From: Mangrovibacillus cuniculi
GTDB taxonomy: Bacteria > Bacillota > Bacilli > Bacillales > R1DC41
DNA length: 64,000 nt
Direction: 5' to 3'
Assembly: GCF_015482585.1 (NCBI RefSeq)
Contig: NZ_CP049742.1
Coordinates: forward strand, 260,501 to 324,500
Translations under genes and position numbers: made by a program
Part shown: in pieces, positions 6,832-64,000 of the stretch
How the letters are laid out: the number at the start of each line of letters is the position of its first letter
How positions within the stretch are numbered: position 1 is the first letter of the stretch
Notes under the pieces: model-generated
Told to the model about the DNA's origin: nothing
The model's database searches: none
Seen by the model: only the letters and a program-made list of their open reading frames with translations

Positions 6832-6854
6832 TGACCAAATGAACAAAGTGGTCA
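6832..6854 (+). promoter_or_regulatory. YhgD-type operator 2, upstream of yhgE
   Basis: TGACCA-N11-TGGTCA, nearly identical to the reverse complement of the site at 6195. It lies between yhgD and yhgE, just before TGGTAAAAT (6857-6865), a possible extended -10, and AGGAGG. This suggests yhgE has its own repressible promoter. Confidence 0.75.
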
Positions 6855-6880
6855 TATGGTAAAATAGGAGGAGAAAACAA

Positions 6881-9350: not shown

Positions 9351-9660
9351 GGATTGGAGCGGAAGGGGGCGACTCCTACGGGAAAGGTGGGTTACTGAGA
9401 CCCCACAGGAGCGTACGCAAAGTGAGGCCGTGTCCAGCTGCAGGTGCGCAACCGCTCGGAAAAGTCCAAAAGCCCTCCGGTGGCTGAATTCTGGGACCTT
9501 CTGCTAAATACCGGTGACATCACGTCACCAACGCAGAAGACAGTACCTCACGTACAAGCCCTCGGTCTTCCAAACTTTTCTGCCGCGGCTGAACGCGCGC
9601 CTTCCGCTTTTCGAAGTGGAAAGCGTCCCCCTGCAGCGGAAATCCCTGTGCAGTCACTTT
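9351..9660 (+). repeat. Dispersed mosaic repeat, long form
   Basis: About 310 bp, much more GC-rich than its surroundings. The first 66 bp (GGATTGGAGCGGAAGGGGGC... to CCCCACAGGAGCG) and the last 44 bp (GTGGAAAGCGTCCCCCTGCA... to GTGCAGTCACTT) recur at 40037-40180. The inner part (CAGCTGCAGGTGCGCAACCG onward, through CGGTCTTCCAAACTTT) recurs in reverse orientation at 18.5 kb. No protein-coding signal. It fills the gap between the yhgE unit and the yrk operon; the element is bounded by flanking AT-rich DNA without obvious target duplications. Confidence 0.85.
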
Positions 9661-30016: not shown

Positions 30017-30095
30017 GACAGCGAAAAAGTTGCTAGTTTGTCTTGAGTTGTAGTGAACAAAACAAACTCTCTCATAAAAGAGTGGAGCAACAATT

Positions 30096-30162
30096 CTCGT
30101 AGTCAAACCATTTACGGTAGTTTGGTAGAAACTTTTGGACCATATCTCCAATATTATACGAG
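30096..30162 (-). ncRNA. Purine riboswitch aptamer (guanine class)
   Basis: Read on the minus strand: P1 CTCGTA / TACGAG, then TAATATTGGAGATATGGTCC, AAAAGTTTCTACCAAACTAC and CGTAAATGGTTTGACTACGA. The conserved ATATGG, GTTTCTACC and the J3/1 bases GACTACG are all present. The discriminating base (position 74 of the xpt aptamer) is C, which marks guanine/hypoxanthine rather than adenine specificity. The 67-nt aptamer lies about 170 nt before the ade start and is followed by a terminator, so ligand binding probably shuts ade off. I see no coding region here. Confidence 0.92.
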
Positions 30163-30266
30163 TCGATATTTGCTATTTAATGATACATATTACGTGCTTC
30201 TGTTTGGTATGTCAATGATTTTTTATGCTGATGAAAAGGGTGTTTCTAGCTCTTTGGAAGCATGAG

Positions 30267-38505: not shown

Positions 38506-38940
38506 GTGCTTTCCTGTACCGAACATGGAAAGCTTCTGATCGGCAGTCAACGTCATTAGACAGAGACCGGATATATATGCTTGCTTTTAACAGTCATGAT
38601 TGACCTATATAATCGTAGATAAATTTCACTTTTATGCCGCGGTTCATCCTCTACGCTGTGAATGATATGAGCCCTACCTCTCTCACATCTTGACAGCTCC
38701 TAGGCTGATCCAGTTAATTTTCATTTTATGAATCGTTTCGATCTTTAATAGATGATTGTTCAGCGTTAGGACGCCAGTATGACCAATCATAAGCTTTTCT
38801 TAAGCAAGAATACTATCATAACATGTATGTATTCTAGAGTCAAACTTATTTAGTATGCATAGTAAGTACCGTTGCAAATATCGAGTTATTATTATCCAAA
38901 ACTGGCCTTCAGGAATAGGAACTTGTATAATGTTTGATGG
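38506..38940. other. Non-coding stretch with no recognised feature
   Basis: About 430 bp between the ABC exporter terminator and the ppaC leader. No open frame with a ribosome site and no known repeat is seen. TTGACA at 38690 with GTTAAT 17 bp on is a weak promoter-like pair, and TATAAT at 38926 is probably the ppaC -10. It may be decayed coding DNA or hold a small RNA; I cannot support either. Confidence 0.4.
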
Positions 38941-49935: not shown

Positions 49936-50139
49936 TCACCACAAAACCATCAAAGCAGGATTAGCGTAAGCAATACCTATACGCTAATCCTTTTTTTGTT
50001 ACGAAACTAATCAGAATTAACAATAATGCTAAAAAACCTACCTTCCATACGTCTTAAGTCCCATACGAAGTTCCATCTGCAGCTCGTTATAGGAAAAACA
50101 AGAAACAGATAAACTTACATCAAGAAAGGAGGCGGTAAC

Positions 50140-50481
50140 GTGAAAAAACTTGGCTTAGGCATAATTGCTGTAATAGCAGCGGGGATTATTTTTATCAACA
50201 TCCCTTCTCTACTATTTTTAATTGTTACAGTTGGAGTCGCGTACTGGTCTTTTAAAAAGTATATGGAGTCCACAGGTGGTTTCAGTAAAGTAGCATGGTT
50301 TGCTATTGGATTAGGTTTTGCTTTTTTAGCAATCACCAATGTTCCAGCTTTAATCGGTTTAGTTGGTGTTTGGATGATTTGGTTAGTAGTAAAAAAGTGG
50401 AACAAGCAAGAGAATGCAACAATCGAGGGAGATCCGTTCAAGCACTTTGAAGATGAATGGTCAAAATTACAAACGAAATGA
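50140..50481 (+). CDS. liaI: LiaI-like membrane protein
   Basis: 113 residues, about four short helices (LGLGIIAVIAAGIIFINI, LLFLIVTVGVAYWSF, VAWFAIGLGFAFLAIT, LIGLVGVWMIWLVV) and a charged tail. Sequence alone would not fix its family, but it stands 9 bases before a LiaH-type PspA protein and in front of liaF-liaS-liaR, the place of LiaI, which anchors LiaH at the membrane during wall stress. AAAGGAGGCGG precedes the GTG start. Confidence 0.7.
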   Translation: MKKLGLGIIAVIAAGIIFINIPSLLFLIVTVGVAYWSFKKYMESTGGFSKVAWFAIGLGFAFLAITNVPALIGLVGVWMIWLVVKKWNKQENATIEGDPFKHFEDEWSKLQTK

Positions 50482-50490
50482 GGAAAATGG

Positions 50491-51114
50491 ATGTCTACTT
50501 TTATGCAACGATTAACAAACACAGTAATGGCAGATTTACATGCGGTATTAGATAAAAAGGAAGAGAAGAATCCAATCGCCACTTTAAACCACGCATTCCG
50601 ACAAGCTGAAAAAGAGACAGAAAAAGTAGGAGAGTTAGTTAACCGTCAATACCGTCTGGTAGATGAGTGGGAGACAAAACTTGATCAATCAAAAAAGCAG
50701 TTAGCCAAGCGTGAAAATCAATTAGTATTAGCGAATCACCATCAAGAAAAAGAGCTGATTACCTTTGCAGAAAAAGAAGTCGCTCGGTTTACTACATTAA
50801 TAGAGGACTTGTCCCAAACACTGCAAGAAGCTAAAACGGAAGTAACTCGTCTAGAAATGAAATATACAGAAATGAAAAATAAGCTAGAAGACATGAGAAT
50901 TAGGCAATTAAAAGTGATGCAGCAAGAAAATGTTGTTCGTGCAACCGAAAAAGCTAACCATTTAGTGGATGCAAGTAAGTACGAGGGAACATTAGAATCA
51001 AAGGTATCCCAAGTAGAGAAGTACATGAAAAGAATGGAAGAGAAATTGACGAGACAGCAAAGGTTTGACAGTATTGATCAACGTTTTGAAGAGTTAGAAA
51101 AGAAAAACAGCTAA
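50491..51114 (+). CDS. liaH: LiaH, PspA/IM30-family phage shock protein
   Basis: 207 residues, almost fully helical and charged, the PspA/Vipp1 coiled-coil fold that builds large rings under the membrane. Family features: QRLTNTVMADLHAVLDK, NPIATLNHAFRQAEKETEKV and long heptads (RLVDEWETKLDQSKKQLAKR). It protects the envelope when LiaRS sees lipid II-type antibiotics. Preceded by LiaI and followed by a strong terminator, so liaIH forms its own transcript as in B. subtilis. Confidence 0.88.
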   Translation: MSTFMQRLTNTVMADLHAVLDKKEEKNPIATLNHAFRQAEKETEKVGELVNRQYRLVDEWETKLDQSKKQLAKRENQLVLANHHQEKELITFAEKEVARFTTLIEDLSQTLQEAKTEVTRLEMKYTEMKNKLEDMRIRQLKVMQQENVVRATEKANHLVDASKYEGTLESKVSQVEKYMKRMEEKLTRQQRFDSIDQRFEELEKKNS

Positions 51115-51117
51115 TAT

Positions 51118-51160
51118 TTGTACAAAAAGCTGCCTTTGTATTGGCAGCTTTTTGTACAAA
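51118..51160 (+). terminator. Terminator between liaH and liaF
   Basis: TTTGTACAAAAAGCTGCC and GGCAGCTTTTTGTACAAA form an 18-bp stem. It separates the highly induced liaIH part from liaFSR. Confidence 0.88.
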
Positions 51161-51259
51161 TAAATTAATCGGAAGAGTCGATGGTCAACACTTTTCAACT
51201 ACTAATAGAAAGGGTAAAATTTATAGGTAGCATAGAAGGACAATTGGGAGGTGGAAGAC

Positions 51260-51949
51260 TTGAAATGGAAAGAAAAAGGGATTTTGCAGCGCTTGATGAT
51301 TGTGGCAGTAATTTTATTTTCTATTGAACTATTATTTATAAGAACAGGATTCCTCGTCCCAATTGGCTTTGCTTCCTTATGTATGTATTTTGGATGGAAG
51401 AAAAGAAAGAAAATTATTTGGAAACTAGTTGGTTGGCTAGGAGTCATCATCTTAATCGCTCTAGCTTTTGAACTAATCACCATTAGACTATTATTCTTTG
51501 TTTTACTAATTTGGGGAGTAGTTCAGTTGTCTAACCGAAAAACAAGTGCATACAATGTCCTAAAGCAAGACACCGCTTCACCCATTCAAAATCTGGTTAT
51601 TGGGCACCAAACTACCCCAACTTCCCCCTACGTGTGGAAGGATATATCTTTTAATCAACTTATTGGAGATTCACAAATTGACTTAACTGGTACAGTCTTA
51701 CCTGAGAGAGAATGTTTCATTGTGGCACAACAAGCTATCGGAGAATTGACAGTAGTGATGCCATATAATGTGGAGTTTTCTGTGAAACATACTTCCCTGT
51801 TTGGAGAAACGAAAATAGTCGAATCGTCCACTAATTCAAATTGGAAACAAAATATCTATTATGAAACAGTCGGATTCCAATCATCTACCTCAAGAGTCAG
51901 AATAATCACGACTGGATTCTTTAGTAGAGTAAAGGTGATTAGAGGATGA
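51260..51949 (+). CDS. liaF: LiaF, inhibitor of LiaRS
   Basis: 229 residues. Three to four N-terminal helices (about 10-95) and a C-terminal beta domain: LIGDSQIDLTGTVLPERECF, IVAQQAIGELTVVMPYNVEF and TTGFFSRVKVIRG, the DUF2154/LiaF C-terminal fold. LiaF keeps the kinase LiaS in its phosphatase state until envelope stress. TTG at 51260 follows GGGAGGTGG; a GTG at 51251 lies in that site. Its last bases overlap the liaS start (ATGA type). Confidence 0.88.
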   Translation: MKWKEKGILQRLMIVAVILFSIELLFIRTGFLVPIGFASLCMYFGWKKRKKIIWKLVGWLGVIILIALAFELITIRLLFFVLLIWGVVQLSNRKTSAYNVLKQDTASPIQNLVIGHQTTPTSPYVWKDISFNQLIGDSQIDLTGTVLPERECFIVAQQAIGELTVVMPYNVEFSVKHTSLFGETKIVESSTNSNWKQNIYYETVGFQSSTSRVRIITTGFFSRVKVIRG

Positions 51950-52983
51950 TGATGTCTAAGAGATGGTTTTTGTTTGTGATCATAAATGTCATAGTGGTGT
52001 CGTTTTTTTCCTTAACCATGGTTGGGGTTTATTTTCCACCAATTGCATGGGATTTGTGGTGGGAGGAAGAGATATTTGATCTTCCGTGGATTGTAGTATT
52101 TCTCTCTTTCCCAATCTTCTTTACCATGGCAATGGGTAGTATTTTTCTTTACCTAGATTTTAAAAGACAGCGTACTTTGGCCGTTTGGTTAATGGAAATT
52201 AAAGATCGAGGAATGCCTACTGCCAGCACTACAGAGGAAGTAGCAAGGAACATGTCATCAAGCTCTACTTTGTTAAAAGAAGTATCTTCTTCTTTACAGG
52301 GAGAAAGATTAGAACAGCAAAGAAAAGTAAATGAGCAATCAGAAACGATGGAAAGAGAAATCCAAACAGTAGTAGAAAATGAAAGAAATCGTCTTGCGAG
52401 AGAACTGCATGATTCTGTAAGTCAGCAACTTTTTGGAGCATCTATGTTGTTATCTACTTTACAAGAAACGAGTAAGGATACTCCTCTGGCTTCTTTAATT
52501 ACAAAGACACAGGGAATTGTTCATCAATCTCAACTAGAAATGAGGGCCTTACTTCTTCACTTAAGGCCTGTGCCTTTAAAAGACAAAACCTTGCAAGAAG
52601 GAATGTATGGATTAATGCACGAACTGGAGGCTCAAACTTCTTTTGAGTTTGTTGCGACTTTAGAAGATTTTACATGTGAAAAAGGTGTAGAAGATCACAT
52701 TTTTCGTATTTTCCAAGAAGCTATTTCGAACATTATCCGCCACGCGAATGCTACGAAAGTAGAAGTTCAATTACTTCAACGAAATCATCAGTTGTTATTA
52801 TTTATTAAAGATAACGGTAAAGGATTTGAAATGGTAGATAACAAATTATCTTCTTACGGACTTTCAACGATGAAAGAAAGGGCGGAAGAAATCGGTGGCT
52901 TCTGTAAAGTAGTTAGCGTGATAGGAGAAGGGACACAGGTTTCTGTAACTGTACCTTTAGAAGAAAGAGAGGGAGACCAATGA
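51946..52983 (+). CDS. liaS: LiaS sensor histidine kinase (HisKA_3)
   Basis: 345 residues. Two helices close to the N-terminus (LFVIINVIVVSFFSLTMVG and WIVVFLSFPIFFTMAMGSIF) with a very short outer loop, an intramembrane-sensing kinase. VVENERNRLARELHDSVSQQ carries the phosphorylated His of the NarL-type kinases; FQEAISNIIRHANA, DNGKGFE and GLSTMKERAEEIGG are the ATPase motifs. Three ATG in a row (51946, 51949, 51952); any may start. It overlaps liaF and liaR by four bases each. Confidence 0.9.
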   Translation: MMMSKRWFLFVIINVIVVSFFSLTMVGVYFPPIAWDLWWEEEIFDLPWIVVFLSFPIFFTMAMGSIFLYLDFKRQRTLAVWLMEIKDRGMPTASTTEEVARNMSSSSTLLKEVSSSLQGERLEQQRKVNEQSETMEREIQTVVENERNRLARELHDSVSQQLFGASMLLSTLQETSKDTPLASLITKTQGIVHQSQLEMRALLLHLRPVPLKDKTLQEGMYGLMHELEAQTSFEFVATLEDFTCEKGVEDHIFRIFQEAISNIIRHANATKVEVQLLQRNHQLLLFIKDNGKGFEMVDNKLSSYGLSTMKERAEEIGGFCKVVSVIGEGTQVSVTVPLEEREGDQ

Positions 52984-53624
52984 TTAGAATATTGATTGTG
53001 GATGACCATGAGATGGTACGACTGGGTGTAGGAACCTATTTGCGATTACAACAGGATATGGAAGTAGTGGCAGAAGGGACAAATGGTGTAGAAGCAATTG
53101 AACTTGCCCTTCTCCATAAGCCAGATGTTATCTTAATGGATTTAGTTATGGACGAAATGGATGGAATCGCAGCAACTAAAGAGCTAATTTCAAAATGGCC
53201 CGAAGTGAAGATCATGATAATGACAAGCTTTTTAGATGATGAAAAAGTATACCCTGCACTTGAAGCGGGTGCAACAAGTTATCTACTGAAAACCTCAACG
53301 GCTGCTCAAATAGCTGAGGCAATCAGAAAGACGGTTCAAGGGGAATCGGTATTAGAGCCCGAAGTTACACAAAAGATGATGAAACGGATGAGAGGTGGCC
53401 AAACGCAAGATCTACATGATGAATTAACGCAGAGAGAGATGGAGATTCTCCAGTTGATGACAAAAGGAAAATCGAATCAAGAGATCGCAGATGAATGTTT
53501 CATTACGTTAAAAACAGTAAAAACACATGTCAGTAATATATTGAGTAAGTTAAGAGTACAAGATCGAACACAAGCAGTCATTTATGCTTTTCAGCACGGT
53601 ATAGTCACGAAAGAAGGGGGTTAA
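52980..53624 (+). CDS. liaR: LiaR response regulator (NarL/LuxR type)
   Basis: 214 residues. Receiver domain with IRILIVDDHEMVRLG, phospho-acceptor Asp in DVILMDLVMDEMDG, Thr/Ser in MIMTSF and Lys in LLKTS. C-terminal LuxR helix-turn-helix LTQREMEILQLMTKGKSNQE followed by IADECFITLKTVKTHVSNIL. It activates the liaI promoter and its own operon. Start ATGA overlap with liaS. Confidence 0.92.
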   Translation: MIRILIVDDHEMVRLGVGTYLRLQQDMEVVAEGTNGVEAIELALLHKPDVILMDLVMDEMDGIAATKELISKWPEVKIMIMTSFLDDEKVYPALEAGATSYLLKTSTAAQIAEAIRKTVQGESVLEPEVTQKMMKRMRGGQTQDLHDELTQREMEILQLMTKGKSNQEIADECFITLKTVKTHVSNILSKLRVQDRTQAVIYAFQHGIVTKEGG

Positions 53625-53628
53625 AAAC

Positions 53629-54182
53629 ATGTTAACGAAGCAGGACAGAACCGTCATGCATAGTTATCCAGGAATGGTTGCAATTGTATCCGTTCGATCT
53701 AGGGGGAAAGAAAACGCTATGGCAGCAGGTTGGCACTCGTATATTTCTTATGAGCCACCGATTTATGGGGTGGCGATAGGGAGAGAAAGGTTTACGTATA
53801 ACCTGTTGAAAGAAGGGGGGAGTTTACCATCTCGTTTTTGCCTTTCGAGCTTGCAGAAAAAATTCAACAATTAGGAACGTTATCAGGAGAAGAGGTAGAT
53901 AAATTTAGAGCACTTGGTTTATCCACTTTTGAAGCAACTTGTGTAAATGCTCCGATTTTAAAAGATGCCTATGTCGCTTATGAGTGTAAAGTAAGAGACG
54001 TGCAAACATATGGAGATCACGATTGGTTTGTCGGGGATATGGTAGCTTTTTATCGCAACGAAGAATTTTTCTTAGAAAATGGTCTGCCTGACTTGGATAA
54101 ACTACAAATACCTCTTTACTTAGGTAGGTCTCTATACGGAAAGTTTGATGCAGATGTTAAAATAATAGATACATATAAATGA
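53629..54182 (+). pseudogene. Flavin reductase-like (FMN split barrel) gene, frameshifted at a G6 run
   Basis: Two open pieces make one protein of about 184 residues. Piece 1 (53629-53874) starts MLTKQDRTVMHSYPGMVAIV and has NAMAAGWHSYISYEPPIYGV and FTYNLL, the front of a flavin reductase domain. Piece 2 (53838-54182) continues with PFELAEKIQQLGTLSGEEVD and CVNAPILKDAYVAYECKV. The break is at six G (53815-53820): one extra G, or a -1 slip, restores KEGGEFTISFLPFELAEK, the expected family sequence. It may be a pseudogene, a phase-variable gene, a programmed frameshift or a sequencing error. It follows liaR by 4 bases. Confidence 0.8.
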
Positions 54183-54183
54183 T

Positions 54184-54228
54184 AAAAAGACGAGACAGGT
54201 AGGCGAACTACTTATCTCGTCTTTTTTG
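54184..54228. terminator. Terminator after the flavin reductase gene
   Basis: AAAAGACGAGA and TCTCGTCTTTT stem with a T run; it also serves the convergent gene. Confidence 0.8.
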
Positions 54229-54241
54229 TATGAATTCAGAA

Positions 54242-54694
54242 TTAAAAAGGCTTAATAGACATTAGAATAATGAGCACAATAGCAGCAGTATGCATCGTCC
54301 AGTTCAGTGGTTGCGTGCTTTTTAAAATGGATAGATAGTTCTCCGATAATTCTTCCCTATCTTCTTTTGCTAATTCCTCTCTAAGTGCAGCGATTTTCTT
54401 TGGCAAAATTCCTGCAACGATAGGCTGGACAGCGATATAAATAATAATAGAAGCGATATACCAAACCTGTGTAAATAAATGAGTATGTAAAACTCCTAAA
54501 AGTAAACCTGTAGCAAGTAACGCTAAGCTCCCAAACTTCGCCATTTTCTCTAAATAGTCTAACAGATCAATAGACCATAAAGCTTTGGCACGTGTAGTTG
54601 CTTTGTTTAAAATGGTGGGCATGGCAAAGCTACTTCCAATCCCTACAACAGCCGCTATTACGTGAAGTAAAACGATGAATCCGTAAAAAGTCAT
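54242..54694 (-). CDS. DUF2269 family membrane protein
   Basis: 150 residues, four helices. FYGFIVLLHVIAAVVGIGSS with the His in helix 1, LALLATGLLLGVLHTH, IIIYIAVQPIVAGIL and MHTAAIVLIILMSIKP match DUF2269, whose His pattern suggests heme or metal binding; function unknown. ATG at 54694 follows AGGAGG; the open frame extends upstream without a ribosome site. Confidence 0.8.
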   Translation of the reverse strand: MTFYGFIVLLHVIAAVVGIGSSFAMPTILNKATTRAKALWSIDLLDYLEKMAKFGSLALLATGLLLGVLHTHLFTQVWYIASIIIYIAVQPIVAGILPKKIAALREELAKEDREELSENYLSILKSTQPLNWTMHTAAIVLIILMSIKPF

Positions 54695-54923
54695 GTATCT
54701 TTCCTCCTGGATAAGTATTTTCCTATTATACATATTTTTAGTAACTTTTGGTTATGTATATAAAATTATTACTCTCTCAAGAATATTTATATAGTTGTGG
54801 TGCCAGAAGTAGATGGAAGGAGTTTTGTAATTTTATAACGAGTTACCGTGTGAAAGCATACAACATTTGGTACAATAGAAGAATACTAGAACGAAGACCC
54901 AAAAATAATATCGGAGGGATTCG

Positions 54924-57900
54924 ATGAAAGAACCTCAGGAAGTACATATTGTGGGTATTGGTGCCTCAGCAGGAGGACTCGAATCCATAGAAACGTTTCT
55001 TTCTGCAACGTCAGAAGAGAAGACGTCTTTTGCCTATGTAATTGTTCAACACCTTTCGCCTAATTATAAGAGTTTTTTACCACAACTCCTATCTAAGGAA
55101 ACAACGTTACCCGTAAAAGTGTTAAAAGATGGAGAACGAATTAAAAAAAATCACGTCTATATTTGCCCTCCTAATTACTATGTAAAAATGGCGAATAAAA
55201 ACGAAATTACATTATCGAAATATGACGAGAATCAAAAAATACACCTACCAATTAACACATTTTTTATTTCATTAGCTAAATATGTAAAAGAAAAAGCTGT
55301 TGGTGTTGTGTTATCAGGAAAAGGTTCAGATGGAACAATTGGACTAAAGCATATAAAAGAAGCAGGAGGTCTTTGCCTAGCACAAGATAACACGGCGAAA
55401 TTCCTAGATATGCCTCAAAATGCTCAAAGCACAGGGTCTGTTGATTTTGTCTTACCGCCCAAAAAAATGGTCAAGCAAATCCATAAGTTTTTCGATTATC
55501 GAAATTACGAGTTTTCCGAAATCACACTTCGAGAAATTTACCAACTTTTGTATAAACAAACTAATATTGATTTTTCACACTATAAATCAAACAGTATGTC
55601 CCGAAGAATGGAACGTCGTATGAATTTAGCACAAGAAACATTCCATTCAGCAGAAGAATACAAACGTACTTTACTAGAGAAACCCGAAGAGTTAAAGAAA
55701 TTACAAGAGGACCTACTAATTGGTGTAACTCATTTCTTTCGTGATGATGAAGCTTTCCTCCATTTAAGACACGAAATAGTTCCAAAGATTATAGAAAATG
55801 CTATGGCTAATCAAGAGAAGATGATTCGCGTTTGGTCTGCGGGATGCTCTACTGGACAAGAAGCATATTCTATCGCCATGGTATTTAAGGAAGTTTTAGA
55901 AGAAAAAGATATTGATATGAATGTGCAGATATTTGCTACAGATGTAAATAAAGAATCAATAAAGGTTGCGAGCCAAGGGATCTATCGTCAAAGTATTGTT
56001 ACTGGTTTCCCATCTAGTTATATTACGAAGTATTTACGTAAAGTAGAAGAAGGGTATCAAGTTTCAAAAGTCATAAGAAGAATGGTTGTGTTTGCGCCTC
56101 ATAATTTGGCGAAAGACTCACCCTTTGTGAATTTAGACTTTATTATATGCCGCAATGTAATGATTTACTTCCAAACCGAATTACAGCAAAAAATACTAAG
56201 TTTATTTCATTTTGCGCTGAAAAATAATGGTTTTTTGTTCTTAGGCCCAAGCGAAACAATTGGAAAAATGGGTACCTTCTTTGAACCGGTTTCTCTTAAA
56301 TGGAAAACGTTTAAGAATCAAGTTACATTTGATCAGTTATCTTCTAGAAGTTTTCAGTCTGTTCCAACCAATGTAGCAGAAGAGACTGCAGTCACAAGAG
56401 CTTATGATTCCTATAGACCTTTAACGTCCCATAAATCAATGGATCAATTACACTTAGCACTAATTGATTCCTCGATCGAGCCGTGTGTAGTGATTGACGA
56501 AAAAGAAGACGTAATATTTTCGTCCACGGGAGCACAGAAGTTTTTATCCTTCCCAAGTGGTCGTGCGCATTATAATATTCATCAGATTGTTTCCACTAAT
56601 CTTTCTGTTGCAATTGGCTCTGCCATTAAGAAAGTAATTAAAACGACTCATGCCATCACGTACAAAAATATTCACACAGAGAATGGCCCAGTTTCAATTA
56701 GAGTCGTGCCTCTTCAACAAAGAGGAAGTATGATTACGCATTTCGGTATCTTCTTTGAACAGGTAAAAGCCCTGGAAGATTCAACCTTGTTTATGGATGC
56801 TTACACATTTGAGCCTGAAGTTGTTATTAGCCAACGTATTTTTGACTTAGAAGACGAGCTTAACGAAACAAAGCAAAAATTACAAAATACTATTGAAGAG
56901 TTAGAAACTTCTAATGAAGAATTACAGGCTACGAATGAAGAGTTAATAGCTGCAAACGAGGAACTACAGTCGACAAACGAAGAAATGCAATCAGTAAATG
57001 AAGAGTTAATGAATGTAAATGTTTCGTATGAAATGAAAATTAATGAGTTAACTGGTATGAATAACGACATGGATAACCTGTTAATCAGTACTAATATTGC
57101 TACCATCTTTTTAAATAGAGAATGGGAAGTAAAGTTATTTACACCAGAGTCGACAAGGATATTTAAACTTATTGAACAAGATATCGGTAGAAGTATATAT
57201 GACATTAAGAATGACTTAGATTATGAAGAACTTCAACGCGACTTAGAAGATACTTTATATGATGAAAAAGTTAATGAGCGAATTTGTAAGACAAGATTTG
57301 GTGACTGGTATCAAATTAAGATGATGCCTTACAGAACAGGGGAAAACAAAATTGATGGGGTCGTCTTAACGTTTACTGATATTACACAATTAAAAAGTAT
57401 GAATAACGAGTTAAGTGTAAGTATGCAAGCACTGGAGAATGCTCCTTCAAACATTGTCCTAACAGACTTTATGGGAAGAATAGAATATATAAACGAAAAA
57501 TTCACCTATTTAGTCGATCAACCTAAAGAAGTGATATTAGGGAAGAAGCTAAAAGAGGTTTACCAAGACTTTATTCAAGTACAACAATTTGATGATGTTT
57601 GGCGAAAAGCAAGGGCAGGAGAAAAGATTACAACTGAATGGATTTACAAGAAGGAGAATAATCAAGAGTTCTGGGAGCGTGTAACGTTTATCCCTGTAGA
57701 AAATAGTGAGGGAGACGTTGCAGAAATATTGCGAATTGGTGAAGAGATAACCGAATATAAACAATCGGAGAAACGACTAATTCAATCAGAGATGTTGTCT
57801 GCAGTTGGACAACTTGCTGCTGGTATTGCTCACGAAATCAGAAATCCACTTACTTCACTTAGAGGTTTCTTACAGTTAATGCAACAATCTAAAACGTATA

Positions 57901-58442
57901 ATGAGTCCTATGCAGATGTTATGATGTCAGAATTTATCCGATTAGAATCTATTATTACAGAACTAATGGTGTTAGGGAAACCAAGGAGTTCTGACAAGAA
58001 AATGGTGTCCATACATAAACTACTTAATGAAGTGTGTTTAGTCTTAGACTCTCAAGCTTTAATGTCCAACAGTACAATAGAGAGAGCCTTCGTTGATGAA
58101 GATGTATTTGTGCTGGGAATTGATCATGAGTTAAAGCAAGTCTTTATAAACTTGATTAAAAACGCTATTGAAGCAATGGGAAGTAAAGGTGGAGTCATGA
58201 CTGTATCAACCAATAGTTTAGAAGATTATATAGAAATAGTGGTCCAGGATAATGGGGTAGGGATGCCACCTGAGTTAATTGAAAGATTAGGAGAACCATT
58301 CTTAACAACAAAAGAAAAAGGAACAGGTTTAGGGTTAATGATGACAAAAAACCTGATCCATTATCATGAAGGATCACTTGTCTTCGTGAGCGAAGAAGGT
58401 AAGGGAACAACCGCGACAATAACATTACCTGTAAGCTATTAA
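54924..58442 (+). CDS. CheB-CheR-PAS-histidine kinase fusion protein
   Basis: 1172 residues, no membrane segment. Residues 1-190: CheB methylesterase with Ser15 (GASAGG), His43 and Asp136. Residues 205-475: CheR with IRVWSAGCSTGQEAYSIAM and FIICRNVMIYF. Residues 500-620: PAS-like. Residues 645-720: coiled coil LNETKQKLQNTIEELETSNE, typical of such fusions. Two further PAS domains follow, then HisKA with His970 (AAGIAHEIRNPLTSLRGFLQ) and ATPase motifs NLIKNAIEAM, DNGVGMP and GTGLGLMM. CheB/CheR fusions are usually signal-transfer proteins outside chemotaxis. No receptor or response regulator is adjacent. The stop overlaps the stop of the convergent PAS-like gene by four bases. Confidence 0.92.
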   Translation: MKEPQEVHIVGIGASAGGLESIETFLSATSEEKTSFAYVIVQHLSPNYKSFLPQLLSKETTLPVKVLKDGERIKKNHVYICPPNYYVKMANKNEITLSKYDENQKIHLPINTFFISLAKYVKEKAVGVVLSGKGSDGTIGLKHIKEAGGLCLAQDNTAKFLDMPQNAQSTGSVDFVLPPKKMVKQIHKFFDYRNYEFSEITLREIYQLLYKQTNIDFSHYKSNSMSRRMERRMNLAQETFHSAEEYKRTLLEKPEELKKLQEDLLIGVTHFFRDDEAFLHLRHEIVPKIIENAMANQEKMIRVWSAGCSTGQEAYSIAMVFKEVLEEKDIDMNVQIFATDVNKESIKVASQGIYRQSIVTGFPSSYITKYLRKVEEGYQVSKVIRRMVVFAPHNLAKDSPFVNLDFIICRNVMIYFQTELQQKILSLFHFALKNNGFLFLGPSETIGKMGTFFEPVSLKWKTFKNQVTFDQLSSRSFQSVPTNVAEETAVTRAYDSYRPLTSHKSMDQLHLALIDSSIEPCVVIDEKEDVIFSSTGAQKFLSFPSGRAHYNIHQIVSTNLSVAIGSAIKKVIKTTHAITYKNIHTENGPVSIRVVPLQQRGSMITHFGIFFEQVKALEDSTLFMDAYTFEPEVVISQRIFDLEDELNETKQKLQNTIEELETSNEELQATNEELIAANEELQSTNEEMQSVNEELMNVNVSYEMKINELTGMNNDMDNLLISTNIATIFLNREWEVKLFTPESTRIFKLIEQDIGRSIYDIKNDLDYEELQRDLEDTLYDEKVNERICKTRFGDWYQIKMMPYRTGENKIDGVVLTFTDITQLKSMNNELSVSMQALENAPSNIVLTDFMGRIEYINEKFTYLVDQPKEVILGKKLKEVYQDFIQVQQFDDVWRKARAGEKITTEWIYKKENNQEFWERVTFIPVENSEGDVAEILRIGEEITEYKQSEKRLIQSEMLSAVGQLAAGIAHEIRNPLTSLRGFLQLMQQSKTYNESYADVMMSEFIRLESIITELMVLGKPRSSDKKMVSIHKLLNEVCLVLDSQALMSNSTIERAFVDEDVFVLGIDHELKQVFINLIKNAIEAMGSKGGVMTVSTNSLEDYIEIVVQDNGVGMPPELIERLGEPFLTTKEKGTGLGLMMTKNLIHYHEGSLVFVSEEGKGTTATITLPVSY

Positions 58443-59065
58443 GAGATATCTGGTAAGTTCAACAATGTTTGATAATAGGTAACGATGGACCTGATTTCAT
58501 GTAATTCTTGCGTAATGAGGTCCACTGTTTCCCATTTCCCTAATTCAATCATATCTGGACGGATAGTGGATAATAAATCTTCCATACGTTGAAGCTTTTC
58601 AATGGCTAGATCAATTCTTTTTTCTTCTACTAATAGAGAAGAAATATCAATTGTTGATAAGAATGGCTCCAACATGGAAATCCATTGTTTCCTTTCAGAT
58701 GTTTTTATTTTTTCATAATTCGAATCCACTAGTTGCTGACGTAAATCATGCATTTGGAATCGAATTTTTTTTATATCATCTTGTGATTCCGTAAAGACAA
58801 TATAATGCTTTTTTTCATGTACACTGTATGAATAATTAATCTTATAAAGGCAAGGTACAAGTTCGTCCCCTTTTGTTAAATGAATTTCACCAGAGCGCGG
58901 CTTCCTATCAGTTGTATAGGATCTCCATTTTGTATAACTATCTGGATCAATGATGTCTTCTAAATGCATACATGGTAAGGAGTCTTTTGCTTTATTTGAC
59001 ATAAAGGAGATCGTTAAGTCTTCTTCTAAGACAAATAAAATTACAGGGATGTTAGCAGGATTCAT
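58439..59065 (-). CDS. Putative PAS-like signalling protein with helical C-terminus
   Basis: 208 residues. Residues 8-95 look like a PAS domain: IPVILFVLEEDLTISFMSNK, then MHLEDIIDPDSYTKWRSY and a closing strand pair KKHYIVFTESQDDIKKIRFQ. Residues 100-208 are helical (MHDLRQQLVDSNYEKIKTSE and later heptads) but I see no HisKA or ATPase motif. It may be an adaptor or anti-kinase. It starts within the stop of the B12-binding gene (ATGA overlap), so the two are coupled. Family not recognised. Confidence 0.55.
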   Translation of the reverse strand: MNPANIPVILFVLEEDLTISFMSNKAKDSLPCMHLEDIIDPDSYTKWRSYTTDRKPRSGEIHLTKGDELVPCLYKINYSYSVHEKKHYIVFTESQDDIKKIRFQMHDLRQQLVDSNYEKIKTSERKQWISMLEPFLSTIDISSLLVEEKRIDLAIEKLQRMEDLLSTIRPDMIELGKWETVDLITQELHEIRSIVTYYQTLLNLPDIS

Positions 59066-59727
59066 CTTAGTGTGACCTCCTTTTGGAAAGAGGTATCTTG
59101 CATGTTCTTATGCGTTAACCAGTGTTGAAGATCGTAAAGAGATGTAATTCTTTCTACGTTCCTAGGCAACATCATTTTTTCTTTTAAGGCTACAATTCGA
59201 CCGCCGACAAATATAGAAGGACGATGGGACAGGGATGCTAATTCTGATGTACATTCTTCTACATTTTTAATGAGGCCTCGCATGGATACAGATATACCAA
59301 TTAACTGTGGCTTCCATTTTTTCGCAAAATGCACAGCGTATTTTGTAGGCAAATTAGGTCCAAGAAATTTCACTTCCCAGCCTGATAAAGAGAGGATGGA
59401 GGCAGTCATTTTTAGACCAAGATAATGTTCTTCCCCCTCTACACAGAATAACATAGCAGTTCTCTCTATCTTCGTTTGGGAATCCTCAGCTTTTTGCAAG
59501 AAAGAAAGAATATAGTCTACAGTCATTGTGGCTAAGTGTTCGTCGGCAACAGTAACTTCATCACTTTCCCATTTATCGCCTACTGTGTACAAAGCTGGTT
59601 TTAATAACTCTTCGAATATAGTTAAATTACTCCAGCCAAGCTTTCGGCATTCCTCTACAATACTTATTAATTTACTAGTGTTTCCTTCAAGCATTGTATC
59701 CGTAGCATGTGTAATCATCGATTGCAT
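59062..59727 (-). CDS. Cobalamin-binding protein with CarH-type Wx9EH motif (putative B12 photoreceptor)
   Basis: 221 residues in two parts. Residues 1-80 form a four-helix bundle with W53-ESDEVTVAD-E63-H64, the Wx9EH motif that contacts the adenosyl group in CarH/LitR light sensors. Residues 90-210 form the Rossmann B12 domain with EEHYLG (E-x-H-x-x-G, His101 as lower cobalt ligand), GWEVKFLGPNLPTKYAVHFA and IGISVSMRG. The MerR DNA-binding domain of CarH is missing, so any output must pass through a partner, most simply the PAS-like protein encoded in overlap. GGAGGG precedes the ATG. The B12 call is strong; light sensing is inference. Confidence 0.8.
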   Translation of the reverse strand: MQSMITHATDTMLEGNTSKLISIVEECRKLGWSNLTIFEELLKPALYTVGDKWESDEVTVADEHLATMTVDYILSFLQKAEDSQTKIERTAMLFCVEGEEHYLGLKMTASILSLSGWEVKFLGPNLPTKYAVHFAKKWKPQLIGISVSMRGLIKNVEECTSELASLSHRPSIFVGGRIVALKEKMMLPRNVERITSLYDLQHWLTHKNMQDTSFQKEVTLR

Positions 59728-59845
59728 AGAAATCCCTCCCTTCTACTAGTTTTATAGCTTATCTTTAACCGTAACACTTTTTGCTGATAATAGCCAATTC
59801 CATGTTTTACTTCTGTAAAATGGATAAGGAAAAATAAAATATTTT

Positions 59846-59871
59846 TGAAACTTTTTTCCTTATCCACCGTA
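59846..59871 (+). promoter_or_regulatory. Sigma-W promoter of yuaF-floT
   Basis: TGAAAC (59846-59851), 16-bp spacer, CGTA (59868-59871), an exact match to the sigma-W consensus. The flotillin operon of B. subtilis is controlled in the same way. Inverted repeats overlap the spacer. Confidence 0.9.
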
Positions 59872-59912
59872 TTTAGATAAGGAAAGCAACAAACACGGAA
59901 GGAGGCGTAGAG

Positions 59913-60434
59913 ATGTTGGAAGGGATAGCTTTGCAAGATTGGTATTTATACATTCTGATTGCTATGACTGGCGTCACGGTATTGTACTTATTTTTTGGTG
60001 ATGTAGCAGAAGGAGCATTCGCTGGAATTGATTGGCTGAATCCAGTTCTCATTTTTTCTTTTATTACATTCACAGCAGGATCAGCTTATATAGGAGAGTT
60101 GTTGACATCGTTCTCTTCCATACTAATTTTAATTGGAAGTGCATTAGCTTCAATAGGAATCACTACGTTGCTTAACATCTTTGTCTTGATTCCTCTATCA
60201 TCAGCAGAAGAATCTCTTGTGTACACAGAAGAATCATTAAAAGGAAGAATAGCGAAAGTAATCATATCAATTCCCAAAGATGGATATGGTGAAATTGTGC
60301 TAGAGGGCAATGGCGGAACAATTTCCAAATCTGCTCAAGGGTATGAGAATGAAGATATTCCGGAAGGCTCTCACGTTCTCGTAATTGACGTGGAACATGG
60401 TGTTGCAGTGGTAATGCCTTATAAACCAATTTAA
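59913..60434 (+). CDS. yuaF: NfeD-family membrane protein YuaF
   Basis: 173 residues. Four N-terminal helices (from WYLYILIAMTGVTVLYLFFG to ILIGSALASIGITTLLNIFV) and a C-terminal OB-like beta barrel (LKGRIAKVIISIPKDGYGEI to VLVIDVEHGVAVVMPY), the NfeD domain. NfeD proteins pair with flotillins and help organise membrane microdomains. Own sigma-W promoter; AAGGAGG before ATG; 13 bases before floT. Confidence 0.9.
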   Translation: MLEGIALQDWYLYILIAMTGVTVLYLFFGDVAEGAFAGIDWLNPVLIFSFITFTAGSAYIGELLTSFSSILILIGSALASIGITTLLNIFVLIPLSSAEESLVYTEESLKGRIAKVIISIPKDGYGEIVLEGNGGTISKSAQGYENEDIPEGSHVLVIDVEHGVAVVMPYKPI

Positions 60435-60447
60435 AGGAGGAAAAGAA

Positions 60448-61995
60448 ATGGGCACAGGTCTTTACATTGTTATTGGATTAATTGCTTTTATACTTATTGC
60501 ATTTATTGCGGTGTTTGTAACGAAATACCGTACAGCTGGTCCCGATGAAGCACTAATCGTTACGGGAAGTTACTTAGGTGGAAAGAACGTACATGTGGAT
60601 GAGTCAGGAAATAAAATTAAGATTATCCGTGGTGGCGGTACGTTTATTCTTCCTGTTTTCCAACAAGCAGAACCGTTAAGTTTACTTTCAAGTAAGTTAG
60701 AAGTTACAACTCCTGAGGTATATACGGAGCAAGGTGTACCAGTTATGGCGGATGGAACTGCAATCATTAAGATTGGTGGATCTATTGGTGAAATCGCAAC
60801 GGCAGCCGAGCAGTTCCTTGGAAAGTCTAAAGCGGATCGTGAAGGAGAAGCGCGTGAGGTACTAGAAGGACACCTTCGTTCTATCTTAGGGTCCATGACG
60901 GTAGAAGAAATTTACAAGAACCGTGAAAAATTCTCACAAGAAGTGCAACGCGTTGCTTCACAAGATTTAGCCAAAATGGGTCTAGTTATTGTATCATTCA
61001 CCATTAAAGATGTAAGAGATAAAAATGGTTACTTAGACTCTCTTGGTAAACCTCGTATCGCTCAAGTTAAACGTGATGCGGATATTGCCACTGCAGAAGC
61101 GGATAAAGAAACACGTATTAAACGTGCGGAAGCGGATAAAGATGCGAAGCGTTCTGAATTAGAGCGTGCTACAGAAATTGCAGAAGCAGAAAAAACTAAT
61201 GCAATGAAAACAGCAGAGTATCGCCGCGAACAAGATATTGCACGAGCTCGAGCTGACCAAGCGTATGACTTAGAAACAGCAAGAGCAAAACAAGAAGTTA
61301 CAGAGCAAGAGATGCAAGTCCGTATCATTGAACGTCAAAAGCAAATCGAACTAGAGGAAAAAGAGATTCTACGTCGTGAAAGACAGTATGATTCTGAAGT
61401 GAAGAAAAAAGCAGATGCAGACCGTTACTCTGTTGAGCAATCAGCAGCAGCGGAAAAAGCGAAAGCAATCGCAGCCGCAGAAGCAGAACAATATCGTATT
61501 GAAGCAATGGCGAAAGCAGAAGCGGAGCGTGTACGTGTAGACGGTATCGCAAAAGCAGATGCAGAAAAAGCTCAAGGTACTGCAGAATCAGAAGTTATCC
61601 GTCTAAAAGGTCTTGCAGAAGCAGAAGCAAAACGTAAGATTGCAGAAGCATTTGATGAGTTCGGTGAAGCAGCTATCTTGGACATGGTATTAAAAATGTT
61701 ACCTCAGTATGCGAAAGAAGTTTCAGCGCCATTGTCTAACATTGATAAGATTACGGTAATCGATTCCGGAAGTGATTCAGCGAACGGAGGAGCAAACAAA
61801 GTAACTGCTTATGCGACAAACTTAATGTCTACCATGCAAGAATCATTAAAAGAAACATCTGGTATCGATGTGAAAGAGTTACTAGAGAACCTTTCTGGTA
61901 AAGGTAATGTAAGAAATAGCATTGATGATTTAGCAAAGCAACTGACTGCTGGCAAGGCGGCAAAACAAGTGGAAGCGGAAGACGAGAAAGAGTAA
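60448..61995 (+). CDS. floT: Flotillin FloT
   Basis: 515 residues. One N-terminal membrane helix (YIVIGLIAFILIAFIAVFV), a PHB/SPFH domain (about 30-215, with GTFILPVFQQAEPLSLLSSK), then a long Ala/Glu/Lys-rich coiled coil (EADKETRIKRAEADKDAKRS and many AEAE repeats) and a C-terminal oligomerisation part. It scaffolds lipid-ordered membrane domains and is a sigma-W product, so it joins the lia operon as envelope-stress protection. The yuaI gene that follows in B. subtilis is absent. Confidence 0.95.
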   Translation: MGTGLYIVIGLIAFILIAFIAVFVTKYRTAGPDEALIVTGSYLGGKNVHVDESGNKIKIIRGGGTFILPVFQQAEPLSLLSSKLEVTTPEVYTEQGVPVMADGTAIIKIGGSIGEIATAAEQFLGKSKADREGEAREVLEGHLRSILGSMTVEEIYKNREKFSQEVQRVASQDLAKMGLVIVSFTIKDVRDKNGYLDSLGKPRIAQVKRDADIATAEADKETRIKRAEADKDAKRSELERATEIAEAEKTNAMKTAEYRREQDIARARADQAYDLETARAKQEVTEQEMQVRIIERQKQIELEEKEILRRERQYDSEVKKKADADRYSVEQSAAAEKAKAIAAAEAEQYRIEAMAKAEAERVRVDGIAKADAEKAQGTAESEVIRLKGLAEAEAKRKIAEAFDEFGEAAILDMVLKMLPQYAKEVSAPLSNIDKITVIDSGSDSANGGANKVTAYATNLMSTMQESLKETSGIDVKELLENLSGKGNVRNSIDDLAKQLTAGKAAKQVEAEDEKE

Positions 61996-62011
61996 TAGAA
62001 ATAGTTACGAG

Positions 62012-62039
62012 AGGTGCACTTACGATAAGTGCACCTTTT
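62012..62039 (+). terminator. Terminator after floT
   Basis: AGGTGCACTTA-CGA-TAAGTGCACCTTTT. Confidence 0.88.
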
Positions 62040-62099
62040 GCTATTGGAGTTAGACATCACTGGCCGTTAAAACTTTTCTGACGGAACAAAATGAGCCAC

Positions 62100-62200
62100 G
62101 AGAAGAGAATAGAGGTCGTCTATACGCATCTGGCGAGAGAAAACCAGTGCTGAGAAGAGAATAGAATAGAGGGCGCCTATAACCATCTGGCGAGAGAAAC
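62100..62200 (+). repeat. Two degenerate 52-bp repeats
   Basis: GAGAAGAGAATAGAGG...CTAT...CATCTGGCGAGAGAAA occurs at 62100 and again at 62152 with a small insertion. CCACGAGAAGAG before the first copy recalls array B (ACCACGAGAAGAGGGA). The rest of 62040-62290 shows nothing else. Confidence 0.6.
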
Positions 62201-62307
62201 TAACTTGTAAGGAGAGTATAAGCACATAGATAAGACAGCACTTTTCTATTTCTTTAATGAAAATGCTATACTGTTAAAACGAGACATTATGCAAGGAGGA
62301 AAACACC

Positions 62308-63408
62308 TTGGTGCAGCATCTAATAGAAGAAGCAGAAAAATTCATTGTGCAATTTTATATAGAAAATCAATTATCTGAAGAAGATTTACATAGAAGGTTA
62401 ACGGAAGTCAAAGAGGAAATTCGTGAAACAGGTACATACAAGCATACCTATGACGAACTGGATTATGGTGCTAAACTTGCCTGGCGCAACAGTAACCGCT
62501 GCATCGGACGATTATTTTGGAAGACTCTACATGTATTAGATGTTAGAGATAGTAAAACTCCTCAAGAAGTAGAAAGTGCTTTACTTCAACATGTTGAGTA
62601 CGCAACAAATAACGGGAAGATCTATCCAACGATTTCCATATTTGCTCCTACCGTAAACAATAAGGCTCCTGTACGTTTATGGAATCATCAATTAATACGT
62701 TATGCAGGTTATCAAAAAGAAGATGGTATAGTGGGAGACCCAGCTTCTATCGAGTTTACTAAAGTATGTGAGTCGCTAGGGTGGAAGGGAGAGGAAACTC
62801 ATTTTGACGTCTTACCACTAGTATACAAATTGGAAGACGAAGAAACACCGAGATTACTTGAAATCCCAAATAATCTGATCTTAGAAGTCTCCATTAAGCA
62901 TCCAGAATTCCAGTGGTTCGAGGATCTTCAATTGAAATGGTATGGAGTGCCAATGATTGCGGACATGAAATTAGAAATCGGTGGAATTGAGTATCAAGCA
63001 GCTCCGTTTAACGGTTGGTACATGGAGACAGAAATCGGAGCAAGAAACTTAGCTGATGAAAATAGGTACAACTATTTGCCGAAAGTGGCGTCTTGTATGG
63101 GACTAGATACTTCTAGAAACAGTACATTTTGGAAAGATCGCGCACTAATCGAATTAAATCATGCGGTGCATTACTCCTTTAAAGAAGCAGGAGTGAGCAT
63201 TGTAGACCATCATACAGCTGCCCAACAGTTCAAACGTTTTGAACAACAAGAAGAACATGCAAACAGAGAAGTAACAGGAGACTGGACGTGGCTAATCCCA
63301 CCGGTTTCTCCAGCTACAACGCATATCTTCCATAAATCATACGATCCAACGTGGAAAACGCCTAATTACTTTTATCAAGAAAAATCTTATACCATTCAAA
63401 ATAAGTAA
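62308..63408 (+). CDS. nos: Nitric oxide synthase oxygenase
   Basis: 366 residues, the bacterial NOS oxygenase domain without a reductase. [14 protein letters not shown] holds the heme-ligating Cys65, [15 protein letters not shown] the Arg-binding Glu, and the C-terminal [20 protein letters not shown] with Trp residues over heme and pterin. It makes NO from arginine with electrons from cellular flavoproteins; in Bacillus NO protects against oxidants and antibiotics. Start TTG 62308 (or GTG 62311) follows AAGGAGG. Monocistronic. Confidence 0.95.
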
Positions 63409-63447
63409 AAAAGAAGCGAGAATCCAATTAGGAAACTCGCTTCTTTC
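63407..63447. terminator. Bidirectional terminator after nos
   Basis: AAGAAGCGAG and CTCGCTTCTT stem with A and T runs on both sides. Confidence 0.85.
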
Positions 63448-63448
63448 A

Positions 63449-63691
63449 TTATCCAAAGTCATATCTGTTCTTTATATGAGGGTAGATAGCAACAAATTGA
63501 GTATAAAGTCTTTCAAACTCTTCATAAGAAAGATGAAGAATTTGATAATTATACGTAGCCAGAAAATCCTCCATGCACTCTACATCTGCTCCGTATAAAA
63601 GTCTAGATTGCTCCAATGAAGTTAACATACTTGAATACGTTTCCTCTAAGTCATAGTCAGTAAACAAGCTACGAATCTCTGCATTGTTCAT
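63449..63691 (-). CDS. Small acidic protein of unknown function, 80 aa
   Basis: MNNAEIRSLFTDYDLEETYS and YGADVECMEDFLATYNYQIL followed by HLSYEEFERLYTQF; soluble, acidic, rich in Tyr and probably helical. AAAGGAGG precedes the ATG. It lies 68 bases downstream of the MreB/Mbl-family gene on the same strand. No family recognised. Confidence 0.65.
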   Translation of the reverse strand: MNNAEIRSLFTDYDLEETYSSMLTSLEQSRLLYGADVECMEDFLATYNYQILHLSYEEFERLYTQFVAIYPHIKNRYDFG

Positions 63692-63759
63692 GAGGAAAAA
63701 CCTCCTTTACAGTCGTGCTTTGTTTAGTGTAACCATGAAGTTGCTAGATTATCCGAGTT

Positions 63760-64000
63760 TTACTTAGCGATTTTATTTAATTGCTGAAGCATAGACAGAG
63801 ATTTTCCTGTTCCGATAGCGACAGACTCTAATGGGTTAGGTGCTAAGTGTACGGGAACGCTTAACTCAGAAGTTAACCAGTCTTGTAAACCATTTAATAA
63901 CGCTCCACCACCAGTAATGACTACTCCGTGGTCAACAATGTCGCCACTTAATTCTGGAGGAGACTGTTCTAAAGTAGAACGGACAGTTTCTAAGATAGCT
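63760..64000 (-). CDS. MreB/Mbl-family actin-like cell shape protein, C-terminal part (MreBH-like)
   Basis: Partial: 80 codons plus one base at the window edge. The peptide [79 protein letters not shown] is the end of the MreB fold, with the ATP-contact loop [25 protein letters not shown] looks more like MreBH than MreB or Mbl, but the fragment is short. The protein guides lateral wall synthesis. Confidence 0.85.

Follow-up and report, generated by a model that had tools for sequence, protein, structure and literature searches.

A probable cobalamin light-sensor module beside a CheB-CheR-PAS-histidine kinase in Mangrovibacillus cuniculi

Three adjoining genes and their products

Three open reading frames (ORFs) adjoin one another in a 64,000-nucleotide stretch of the Mangrovibacillus cuniculi chromosome (the whole stretch of DNA that was analyzed, referred to here as the window). 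As confirmed in the ORF list, they encode a stand-alone cobalamin (B12) protein of 221 aa on the minus strand (positions 59062-59727), a 208-aa protein on the same strand that we call the adaptor (58439-59065), and a 1172-aa CheB-CheR-PAS-PAS-histidine kinase on the plus strand (54924-58442). The stop of the B12 gene and the start of the adaptor gene share four bases (ATGA, 59062-59065, minus strand), which suggests translational coupling, and the stop ends of the adaptor and kinase genes overlap convergently by another four bases (58439-58442). An initial annotation, made from the letters alone, had described the same genes, strands, lengths, and overlaps and had read them as a possible light-sensing module. 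We propose that the three genes probably form a conserved system in which a B12 light sensor acts through a small adaptor on a giant signaling enzyme and that in related bacteria this sensor is connected to other outputs.

For comparison, 299 genomes of the order were searched with the B12 protein, and 238 have a match at E 0.001, MerR-like paralogues included; one such paralogue (L002) is a separate B12 protein of the window's own genome, whose N-terminal part is MerR-type by eye. Eighty regions picked by hand for spread among the matches listed, 14 named loci, and the window made 95 loci. One without an open B12 frame (L097) was left out, its genome (G145) being re-examined as L168, and merging of identical B12 proteins (L003/L057, L004/L068, and L009/L111) reduced the remaining 94 to 91 nonredundant loci. 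The alignments comprised 66 of the 94 B12 proteins, partners from 87 of the 94 loci, 13 chosen adaptors, and 40 photoglobin-like genes from the 91 loci. A family-level search of relatives covered the window's genome only.

The B12 protein, which we assign to the CarH/photocobilin type, consists of a four-helix cap and a Rossmann B12 domain; B12-binding_2 and B12-binding are its only Pfam domains, and neither a MerR helix-turn-helix DNA-binding domain (by Pfam) nor a globin domain (in the structural model) was found in it. The W-x9-EH spacing noticed in the initial annotation is formed by Trp53 (codon 59569-59571; Trp131 of CarH) and Glu63-His64 (59536-59541), and the predicted lower ligand of cobalt, His101 (59425-59427), lies in the motif GEEHYLG, all on the minus strand. 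None of the 94 loci, the window included, deviates at any of these four residues. The light signature of cobalamin photoreceptors is given by SignatureFinder as GxxW, EH, GxxH, and GxxxP (PMC11796333), and the window's protein has all four motifs, as GDKW (G50-W53), EH (E63-H64), GEEH (G98-H101), and GPNLP (G123-P127). At the position of CarH His132, on which the initial annotation was silent, it has Glu54 (59566-59568, minus strand); across the 94 loci this residue is Glu in 79, Gln in 14, Leu in 1, and His in none. TtCarH uses His132 for its bis-His light state; the position is occupied by Arg, Gln, or Tyr in CtMerR, SasPcob, and AbDPcob (PMC11796333). Because these three proteins are photoactive, loss of His132 is no argument against light sensing, and Glu54 is predicted to give a light state differing from that of CarH.

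When Protein Data Bank (PDB) sequences were ranked against the B12 protein, CtMerR and the photocobilins came nearest, followed by the methyl carrier MttC and then by TtCarH; in the alignment, MttC has Phe at Trp53 and lacks the EH. An AlphaFold (AF2) model built from the 66-row alignment (predicted local distance difference test [pLDDT] score, 93.9) gave structural Z scores of 25.1 with SasPcob, 24.8 with CtMerR, 23.1 with AbDPcob, and about 19 with CarH; absence of a family from the structural match list was not counted as evidence. The curated CarH model was matched at 54.4 bits (cutoff, 400), and the corrinoid methyl-carrier models were also below their cutoffs (pyl_corrinoid, 53 versus 215 bits; MtgC, 39 versus 370; MtbC, 39 versus 350; MtaC, 32 versus 420). 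The signature, the nearest relatives, and the restriction to two B12 domains bear out the view of a photoreceptor-type B12 protein without a DNA-binding domain. Its putative ligand is adenosylcobalamin (AdoCbl), and the genome encodes a Cob_adeno_trans adenosyltransferase, which implies that AdoCbl could be made from cobalamin. Two genes for this enzyme, scoring equally (G000:C1:1527-2024 and C1:383451-383948), reflect a duplication or an assembly repeat.

Pfam returned nothing above cutoff for the adaptor, PAS models included. Its AlphaFold model consists of a PAS-like N terminus (about residues 7 to 93) and a long two-helix hairpin (about residues 141 to 202) resembling the dimerization and histidine phosphotransfer (DHp) domain of kinases. 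The PAS fold is supported by the order of strands and helices and by Foldseek matches to isolated PAS domains (e.g., 8px4; TMt, 0.70; root mean square deviation [rmsd], 1.9), the top Foldseek match being a PAS/LOV-histidine kinase (4gcz; E 1.1e-5). In hhalign comparisons based on 20 adaptors, the tail matched the DHp domain of kinase-type partners from sister loci (probability, 74.5; E 2.7e-5; maximum probability in 20 column shuffles, 2.8); coiled-coil and PAS_10 profiles gave negative results (probability, 0.1 and 0.1). A His at the phosphoacceptor position is absent from the aligned adaptors. Judged from these models, the adaptor appears related to PAS-DHp kinases, minus the catalytic domain and His, so that what had been called a PAS-like protein may be described more closely as a PAS domain with a dead kinase-dimerization hairpin.

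The kinase carries, in a single chain and on the plus strand, the Pfam domains CheB (methylesterase; 54951-55481, with the motifs GASAGG, QHLS, and GSDG), CheR_N and CheR (the S-adenosylmethionine-binding domain at 55725-56303, with AGCSTGQEAYS, ATD, and CRN), PAS_10 (57069-57386), PAS_4 (57432-57758), HisKA (DHp; 57804-57986, with the intact H-box HEIRNPL), and HATPase_c (58125-58433), in agreement with the initial annotation. An own-genome search found no second CheB-CheR fusion. The PDB sequence nearest to the kinase domain is sporulation kinase B (KinB; 3d36, E 2.4e-37), and the curated KinD model is matched at 176.5 bits against a cutoff of 775. It had been remarked that the three proteins have no membrane segment and no response regulator beside them, and both remarks hold: the maximal Kyte-Doolittle values over 19 residues are 0.96, 1.34, and 1.29, and the closest response regulator to be seen (52980-53624) sits immediately behind a kinase of its own (51946-52983), with other ORFs between it and the CheB-CheR-kinase. 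That pair, which is LiaSR-like, was rejected as a partner because it is self-contained and other ORFs intervene. The CheB-CheR-kinase is an orphan, and the genome encodes Spo0F (125 aa; E 2.3e-61 to the solved Spo0F) and Spo0A (above cutoff). Since there is no adjacent response regulator and the kinase is of the sporulation-kinase type, Spo0F would be the likeliest phosphate acceptor.

Partners and gene linkage across the Bacillales

A same-strand gene follows the B12 gene within 120 bases in 87 of the 94 loci and is lacking in 7. The 87 partners share an N-terminal part, PAS-like according to the model of the window's adaptor, in which P7, P9, D40, S43, K46, and E60 are nearly invariant and on which the Pfam PAS models are weak (PAS_9 in 7/87 and PAS in 5/87). 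Our own profiles for what lies behind this part divide the 91 loci into 56 with STAS, 5 with HisKA/HATPase, 1 with GGDEF, 4 with little beyond PAS, 4 without a partner, and 21 belonging to the window's clade, with a short adaptor (deleted in L004); a Pfam check on the 87 partners found STAS in 54, HATPase_c in 5, and GGDEF in 1. By this comparison the module appears common to many Bacillales, with interchangeable outputs. The earlier interpretation is supported in part and is refined here in that the module is conserved well beyond this genome and not peculiar to it.

Several of these partners merit individual mention. The five kinase-type proteins (L015:8614-9720, L016:8542-9648, L072:7884-8987, L101:7899-9032, and L104:5644-6750) keep the ATPase domain and have lost the phosphoacceptor His, its place being taken by E, T, N, S, and N. 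The GGDEF partner (L125:7999-8943) stands behind a distant B12 homologue, with a diguanylate cyclase as output under the same logic. In three loci (L064, L087, and L091), the PAS-only partner is followed by a 185-aa gene (+2 after B12), presumably carbonic-anhydrase-like.

In a tree of the B12 proteins, the loci with CheB-CheR, CheR, or PAS-only partners, including the window, form a single 25-row group (support, 95/89), inside which the window's exact position is unsure (88/66), and the five kinase-partner loci form a group of their own (98/95). The gene convergent to the adaptor in the 21 loci of the window's clade is a CheB-CheR-PAS-kinase in 8, the same protein without the kinase in 2, and a CheR-only protein or remnant in 10; no CheR was found in the remaining locus. 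The spacing of −4 between adaptor and kinase recurs in two loci (L065 and L085).

We also searched the 299 genomes with the CheB-CheR part of the window's kinase. The 21 best matches span both domains (one, in G145, is truncated with a stop), and for 13 of them, including all of the 12 best with the window among these, there is a B12 match no more than 6 kb away among the matches listed (the B12 frame of G283 holds a stop). The next nine matches are CheR-only proteins, nine of nine at B12 loci; lower matches are mostly ordinary CheR-sized frames. Over 10 loci, pairwise identities of the B12 proteins and the CheB-CheR proteins are correlated (Spearman, 0.82; value reached in 0/2000 permutations of the labels), as are those of B12 protein and adaptor (0.70; 0/2000) and of adaptor and CheB-CheR protein (0.54; 15/2000). 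The linkage of the B12 and CheB-CheR genes is not due to chance. Separation of the genes had been set beforehand as grounds for refuting the module; when co-occurrence was checked, they proved to be kept together in Bacillales loci.

Among the 10 CheB-CheR loci, an intact H-box and ATPase domain are kept in 8 and the CheR motifs in all 10. The two exceptions (L047 and L048), which by tree path are closest to the window, have lost the kinase domain and kept CheB, CheR, and PAS. Sutcliffiella-type loci go further: CheB, PAS, and kinase are gone, and a CheR protein of 328 to 352 aa remains, whose C terminus is a DHp remnant without His (nine proteins; hhalign probability versus DHp, 95.4). Decayed remains are present in Priestia flexa (L004) and in genome G145 (L168).

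A stand-alone gene of about 120 aa resembling photoglobins (bilin-globins) occurs in 40 of the 91 B12 loci. It lies directly upstream of the B12 gene in 33 of the 56 STAS loci (23 are without it) and in all 4 partnerless loci and about 1.4 kb downstream in 3 of the 5 kinase-type loci, with a fragment in a fourth (L101/L145). A single such sequence gave only chance-level PDB matches (E 0.3 to 0.64), whereas a 40-row profile searched against all PDB sequences ranked phycocyanin alpha (E 0.0018), SasPcob (0.0043), and AbDPcob (0.051) first, the next match (0.2) being at chance level. The invariant Asp38 and Trp64 align to SasPcob chain positions 264 and 290, which a numbering offset of 6, derived by hand from W61, E71-H72, and H108, converts to Asp270 and Trp296; both are reported biliverdin contacts (PMC10979010). 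Of the 25 best photoglobin loci, 24 have an ABM-family gene directly upstream (assigned by Pfam in the case of L072), and the PDB relatives of its product include, weakly, the heme-degrading IsdG, IsdI, and HmoB. Such a grouping of genes is what a light sensor would lead one to expect, but a methyl carrier would not; the B12 and photoglobin-like genes together would in effect be a split photocobilin, which, so far as can be judged from sequence, lends independent support to light sensing.

Within these 25 loci (L137 to L161), the ABM monooxygenase-like, photoglobin-like, and B12 genes occur all together in 11, and the B12 gene lies in the same 3.3-kb piece in 12; in L141, for example, they lie at 1184-1483, 1504-1842, and 1900-2427. 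In L168 (4917-7258), a decayed CheB-CheR gene and a truncated B12 gene stand beside ABM-like and photoglobin-like genes, linking the window's clade with the photoglobin cassette.

Proposed light response and competing explanations

We favor, with some reserve, a cytosolic AdoCbl photosensor module in which the B12 sensor would act through the PAS adaptor on the CheB-CheR-kinase and perhaps into the sporulation phosphorelay. In the dark, the B12 protein would bind AdoCbl, with H101 below the cobalt and W53, E63, and H64 around the adenosyl group. Light would break the Co-C bond and alter the shape or oligomeric state of the protein; the adaptor would read this change and relay it to the kinase, in the simplest form by docking its DHp-like helices on the DHp/PAS region of the kinase, which would then pass phosphate to Spo0F. 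That the module is sensory is well supported by comparison among the loci; the light response, the contacts between the proteins, the direction of control, and Spo0F as target are what we infer from there. The outlet into sporulation or general stress named in the initial annotation finds backing in the orphan kinase of sporulation type and in the STAS partners of sister loci, which may indicate a general-stress link, but the kinase is perhaps not the sole or main output, as some relatives keep CheR only.

A number of observations weigh against this account. The complete four-motif signature is present in only 46 of the 94 loci, the other 48 differing at one or more of G98, G123, and P127 (kept in 46, 87, and 91 loci). 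Methyl carriers share the fold of the B12 protein and outscore CarH (MetH, Z 21.7; monomethylamine corrinoid protein, 20.1), and therefore fold alone does not decide function. None of the 21 loci with CheB-CheR or CheR has the photoglobin gene, nor do the 4 PAS-only loci or the GGDEF locus, and the strongest light-linked evidence comes from relatives and not from the window's clade. A photoglobin search of the window's genome gave no candidates, so that AdoCbl alone would be the chromophore here; several genomes with the CheB-CheR fusion have a photoglobin-like gene elsewhere (e.g., G037, G077, G005, and G117). The adaptor model is of moderate quality (pLDDT, 74.3; predicted template-modeling score, 0.44; 13-row alignment), its whole-length PAS-DHp Foldseek match has an rmsd of 17 Å, and its tail shows only a weak match to the kinase DHp of its own class (hhalign probability, 6.2) and none to the CheR-only tail (0.4). 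Eight of the 21 CheB-CheR fusions are not near a B12 gene among the matches listed, and hence the fusion family has other uses; since the kinase is gone in L047, L048, and the Sutcliffiella-type loci, phosphotransfer is not the output of all members. No B12 gene was recognized by eye around three of the eight unlinked fusions (L165 to L167), and in two of these (about 6850-8475), the fusion is followed, again by eye, by a PAS-GGDEF-like protein (L167) or two shorter ORFs of that kind (L166).

The reduction series motivates another view of the output, which we regard as less likely, namely, that CheR and CheB are the real effectors and that a partner protein is reversibly methylated on glutamyl residues under the control of the B12 protein and adaptor, the kinase being accessory. 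CheR motifs persist in every CheB-CheR protein and in the nine Sutcliffiella-type proteins, beyond the loss of the kinase, as do DHp-like helices without the phosphoacceptor His, both on the adaptor and on the CheR-only protein. This is offset by the 8 of 10 loci that retain an intact kinase core, by the examined stretches of L005 and the four PAS-only loci, in which CheR was not found, and by the fact that no methylation substrate is known.

CarH-type sensors respond to the binding of AdoCbl itself, and the module could accordingly sense the availability of this corrinoid instead of light, with the holo or apo state of the B12 protein setting the state of adaptor and kinase. B12 binding is reported to drive assembly (PMC8221060), and the substitution of Glu54 for the His used in the CarH light state, the missing photoglobin, and the presence of an adenosyltransferase all fit such a role. 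We nevertheless find it unlikely, as the photoactive relatives do without His132 too, the pairing of photoglobin-like and B12 genes in sister loci fits light and not a B12 level, and Rfam detects no cobalamin riboswitch in the window at gathering thresholds.

A wider generalization, on which we would place little weight at present, is that of a trans-acting modular B12 (often plus bilin) light cassette built around a PAS adaptor with interchangeable ends (STAS, dead-His kinase, GGDEF, or a bare DHp hairpin), which in the window's clade would control a CheB-CheR-kinase that has kept protein methylation as its output, either alongside phosphotransfer or in its place. It is improbable that the convergent kinase is merely a neighbor and that only the B12 protein and adaptor act together: although the kinase is on the opposite strand, the STAS, histidine kinase, and PAS-only relatives have the B12-adaptor pair without it, and the eight unlinked fusions occur elsewhere, several families show the convergent arrangement, which is also seen through the reductive stages, and the identities covary. 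A role of the B12 protein as corrinoid methyl carrier in a methyltransferase system, such as its weak matches to the pyl_corrinoid, MtgC, and MtbC models and the fold it has in common with MetH and the monomethylamine corrinoid protein might indicate, is very improbable and was disfavored, given scores far under the curated cutoffs, the lack of W and EH in MttC, the absence of any corrinoid methyltransferase recognized by eye among the ORFs of 50000-64000, and the signaling proteins that are the partners in relatives.

Relation to known systems and other features of the window

The light-sensing module proposed here is closest to the photocobilins SasPcob and AbDPcob, with which it shares a CarH-type B12 domain, the W..EH signature, the lack of His at the His132 position, and, presumably, action via protein-protein contacts; the predicted link of SasPcob to STAS and SpoIIE/PP2C proteins echoes the STAS partners found in relatives (PMC10979010). 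In photocobilins, however, the globin is fused, whereas in the relatives it has a gene of its own and in the window's genome it is missing, and the partner here is a PAS adaptor with a CheB-CheR-kinase. The bilin-binding BBAG-2 globins, which are reported to be biliverdin-specific, are likewise encoded with separate B12-binding proteins, together with heme oxygenase, e.g., in Myxococcales; that is another phylum, and Bacillus, Firmicutes, Bacillota, and STAS have 0 mentions in the main text of that report (PMC10151467). CarH/LitR and CtMerR have the B12 domain fold and light signature in common with the B12 protein, which differs from them in lacking the MerR DNA-binding domain and, presumably, in acting on a signaling protein rather than DNA; the His132 with which CarH/LitR forms its bis-His light state is replaced by Glu54. 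Known CheB-CheR-PAS histidine kinase fusions have identical domains in a single chain, but the one here is tied to a B12 sensor and a PAS-DHp adaptor. The sporulation kinases KinB and KinD compare in the HisKA/ATPase region (nearest to KinB), in the orphan state, and in the presence of Spo0F and Spo0A in the genome, and differ from the present kinase, with its N-terminal CheB-CheR and B12-PAS input.

A photoglobin study by Schneider et al. in 2022 reportedly predicted, from domain fusions and gene neighborhoods, the coupling of photoglobin and B12 sensors to signal transduction proteins. Our literature search, by title and start of abstract, yielded nothing on a Bacillales cassette; this photoglobin paper lay outside it, and an earlier description is possible. 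We therefore do not claim the cassette as undescribed, and what we regard as new is that a sensor of the CarH/photocobilin type would signal in trans to a CheB-CheR-kinase by way of a PAS adaptor. If true, nonphototrophic spore formers would perceive green light, and many of their relatives perhaps red light too, with a sense that is assembled from exchangeable parts and linked to sporulation or general stress. For optogenetics, kinase, STAS, CheR, and GGDEF outputs that occur naturally with a B12 sensor could be useful; the locus also suggests what a CheB-CheR-kinase fusion might do and is a possible case of a dead kinase-dimerization domain retained as an adaptor.

A promoter and terminator scan was uninformative (4 promoter-like sites versus 20.1 expected, none at the gene starts). 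Control by a cobalamin riboswitch was rejected, as Rfam at gathering thresholds gave, elsewhere in the window, only a purine riboswitch (30080-30181, minus strand) and two small RNAs, a BsrC-like RNA (38652-38736, plus strand) and a Bacillaceae-1 RNA (9488-9556, plus strand). Finally, a gene at 53629-54182, which we take to be flavin-reductase-like, is seen as two overlapping ORFs in different frames, reflecting a frameshift or a sequencing error.

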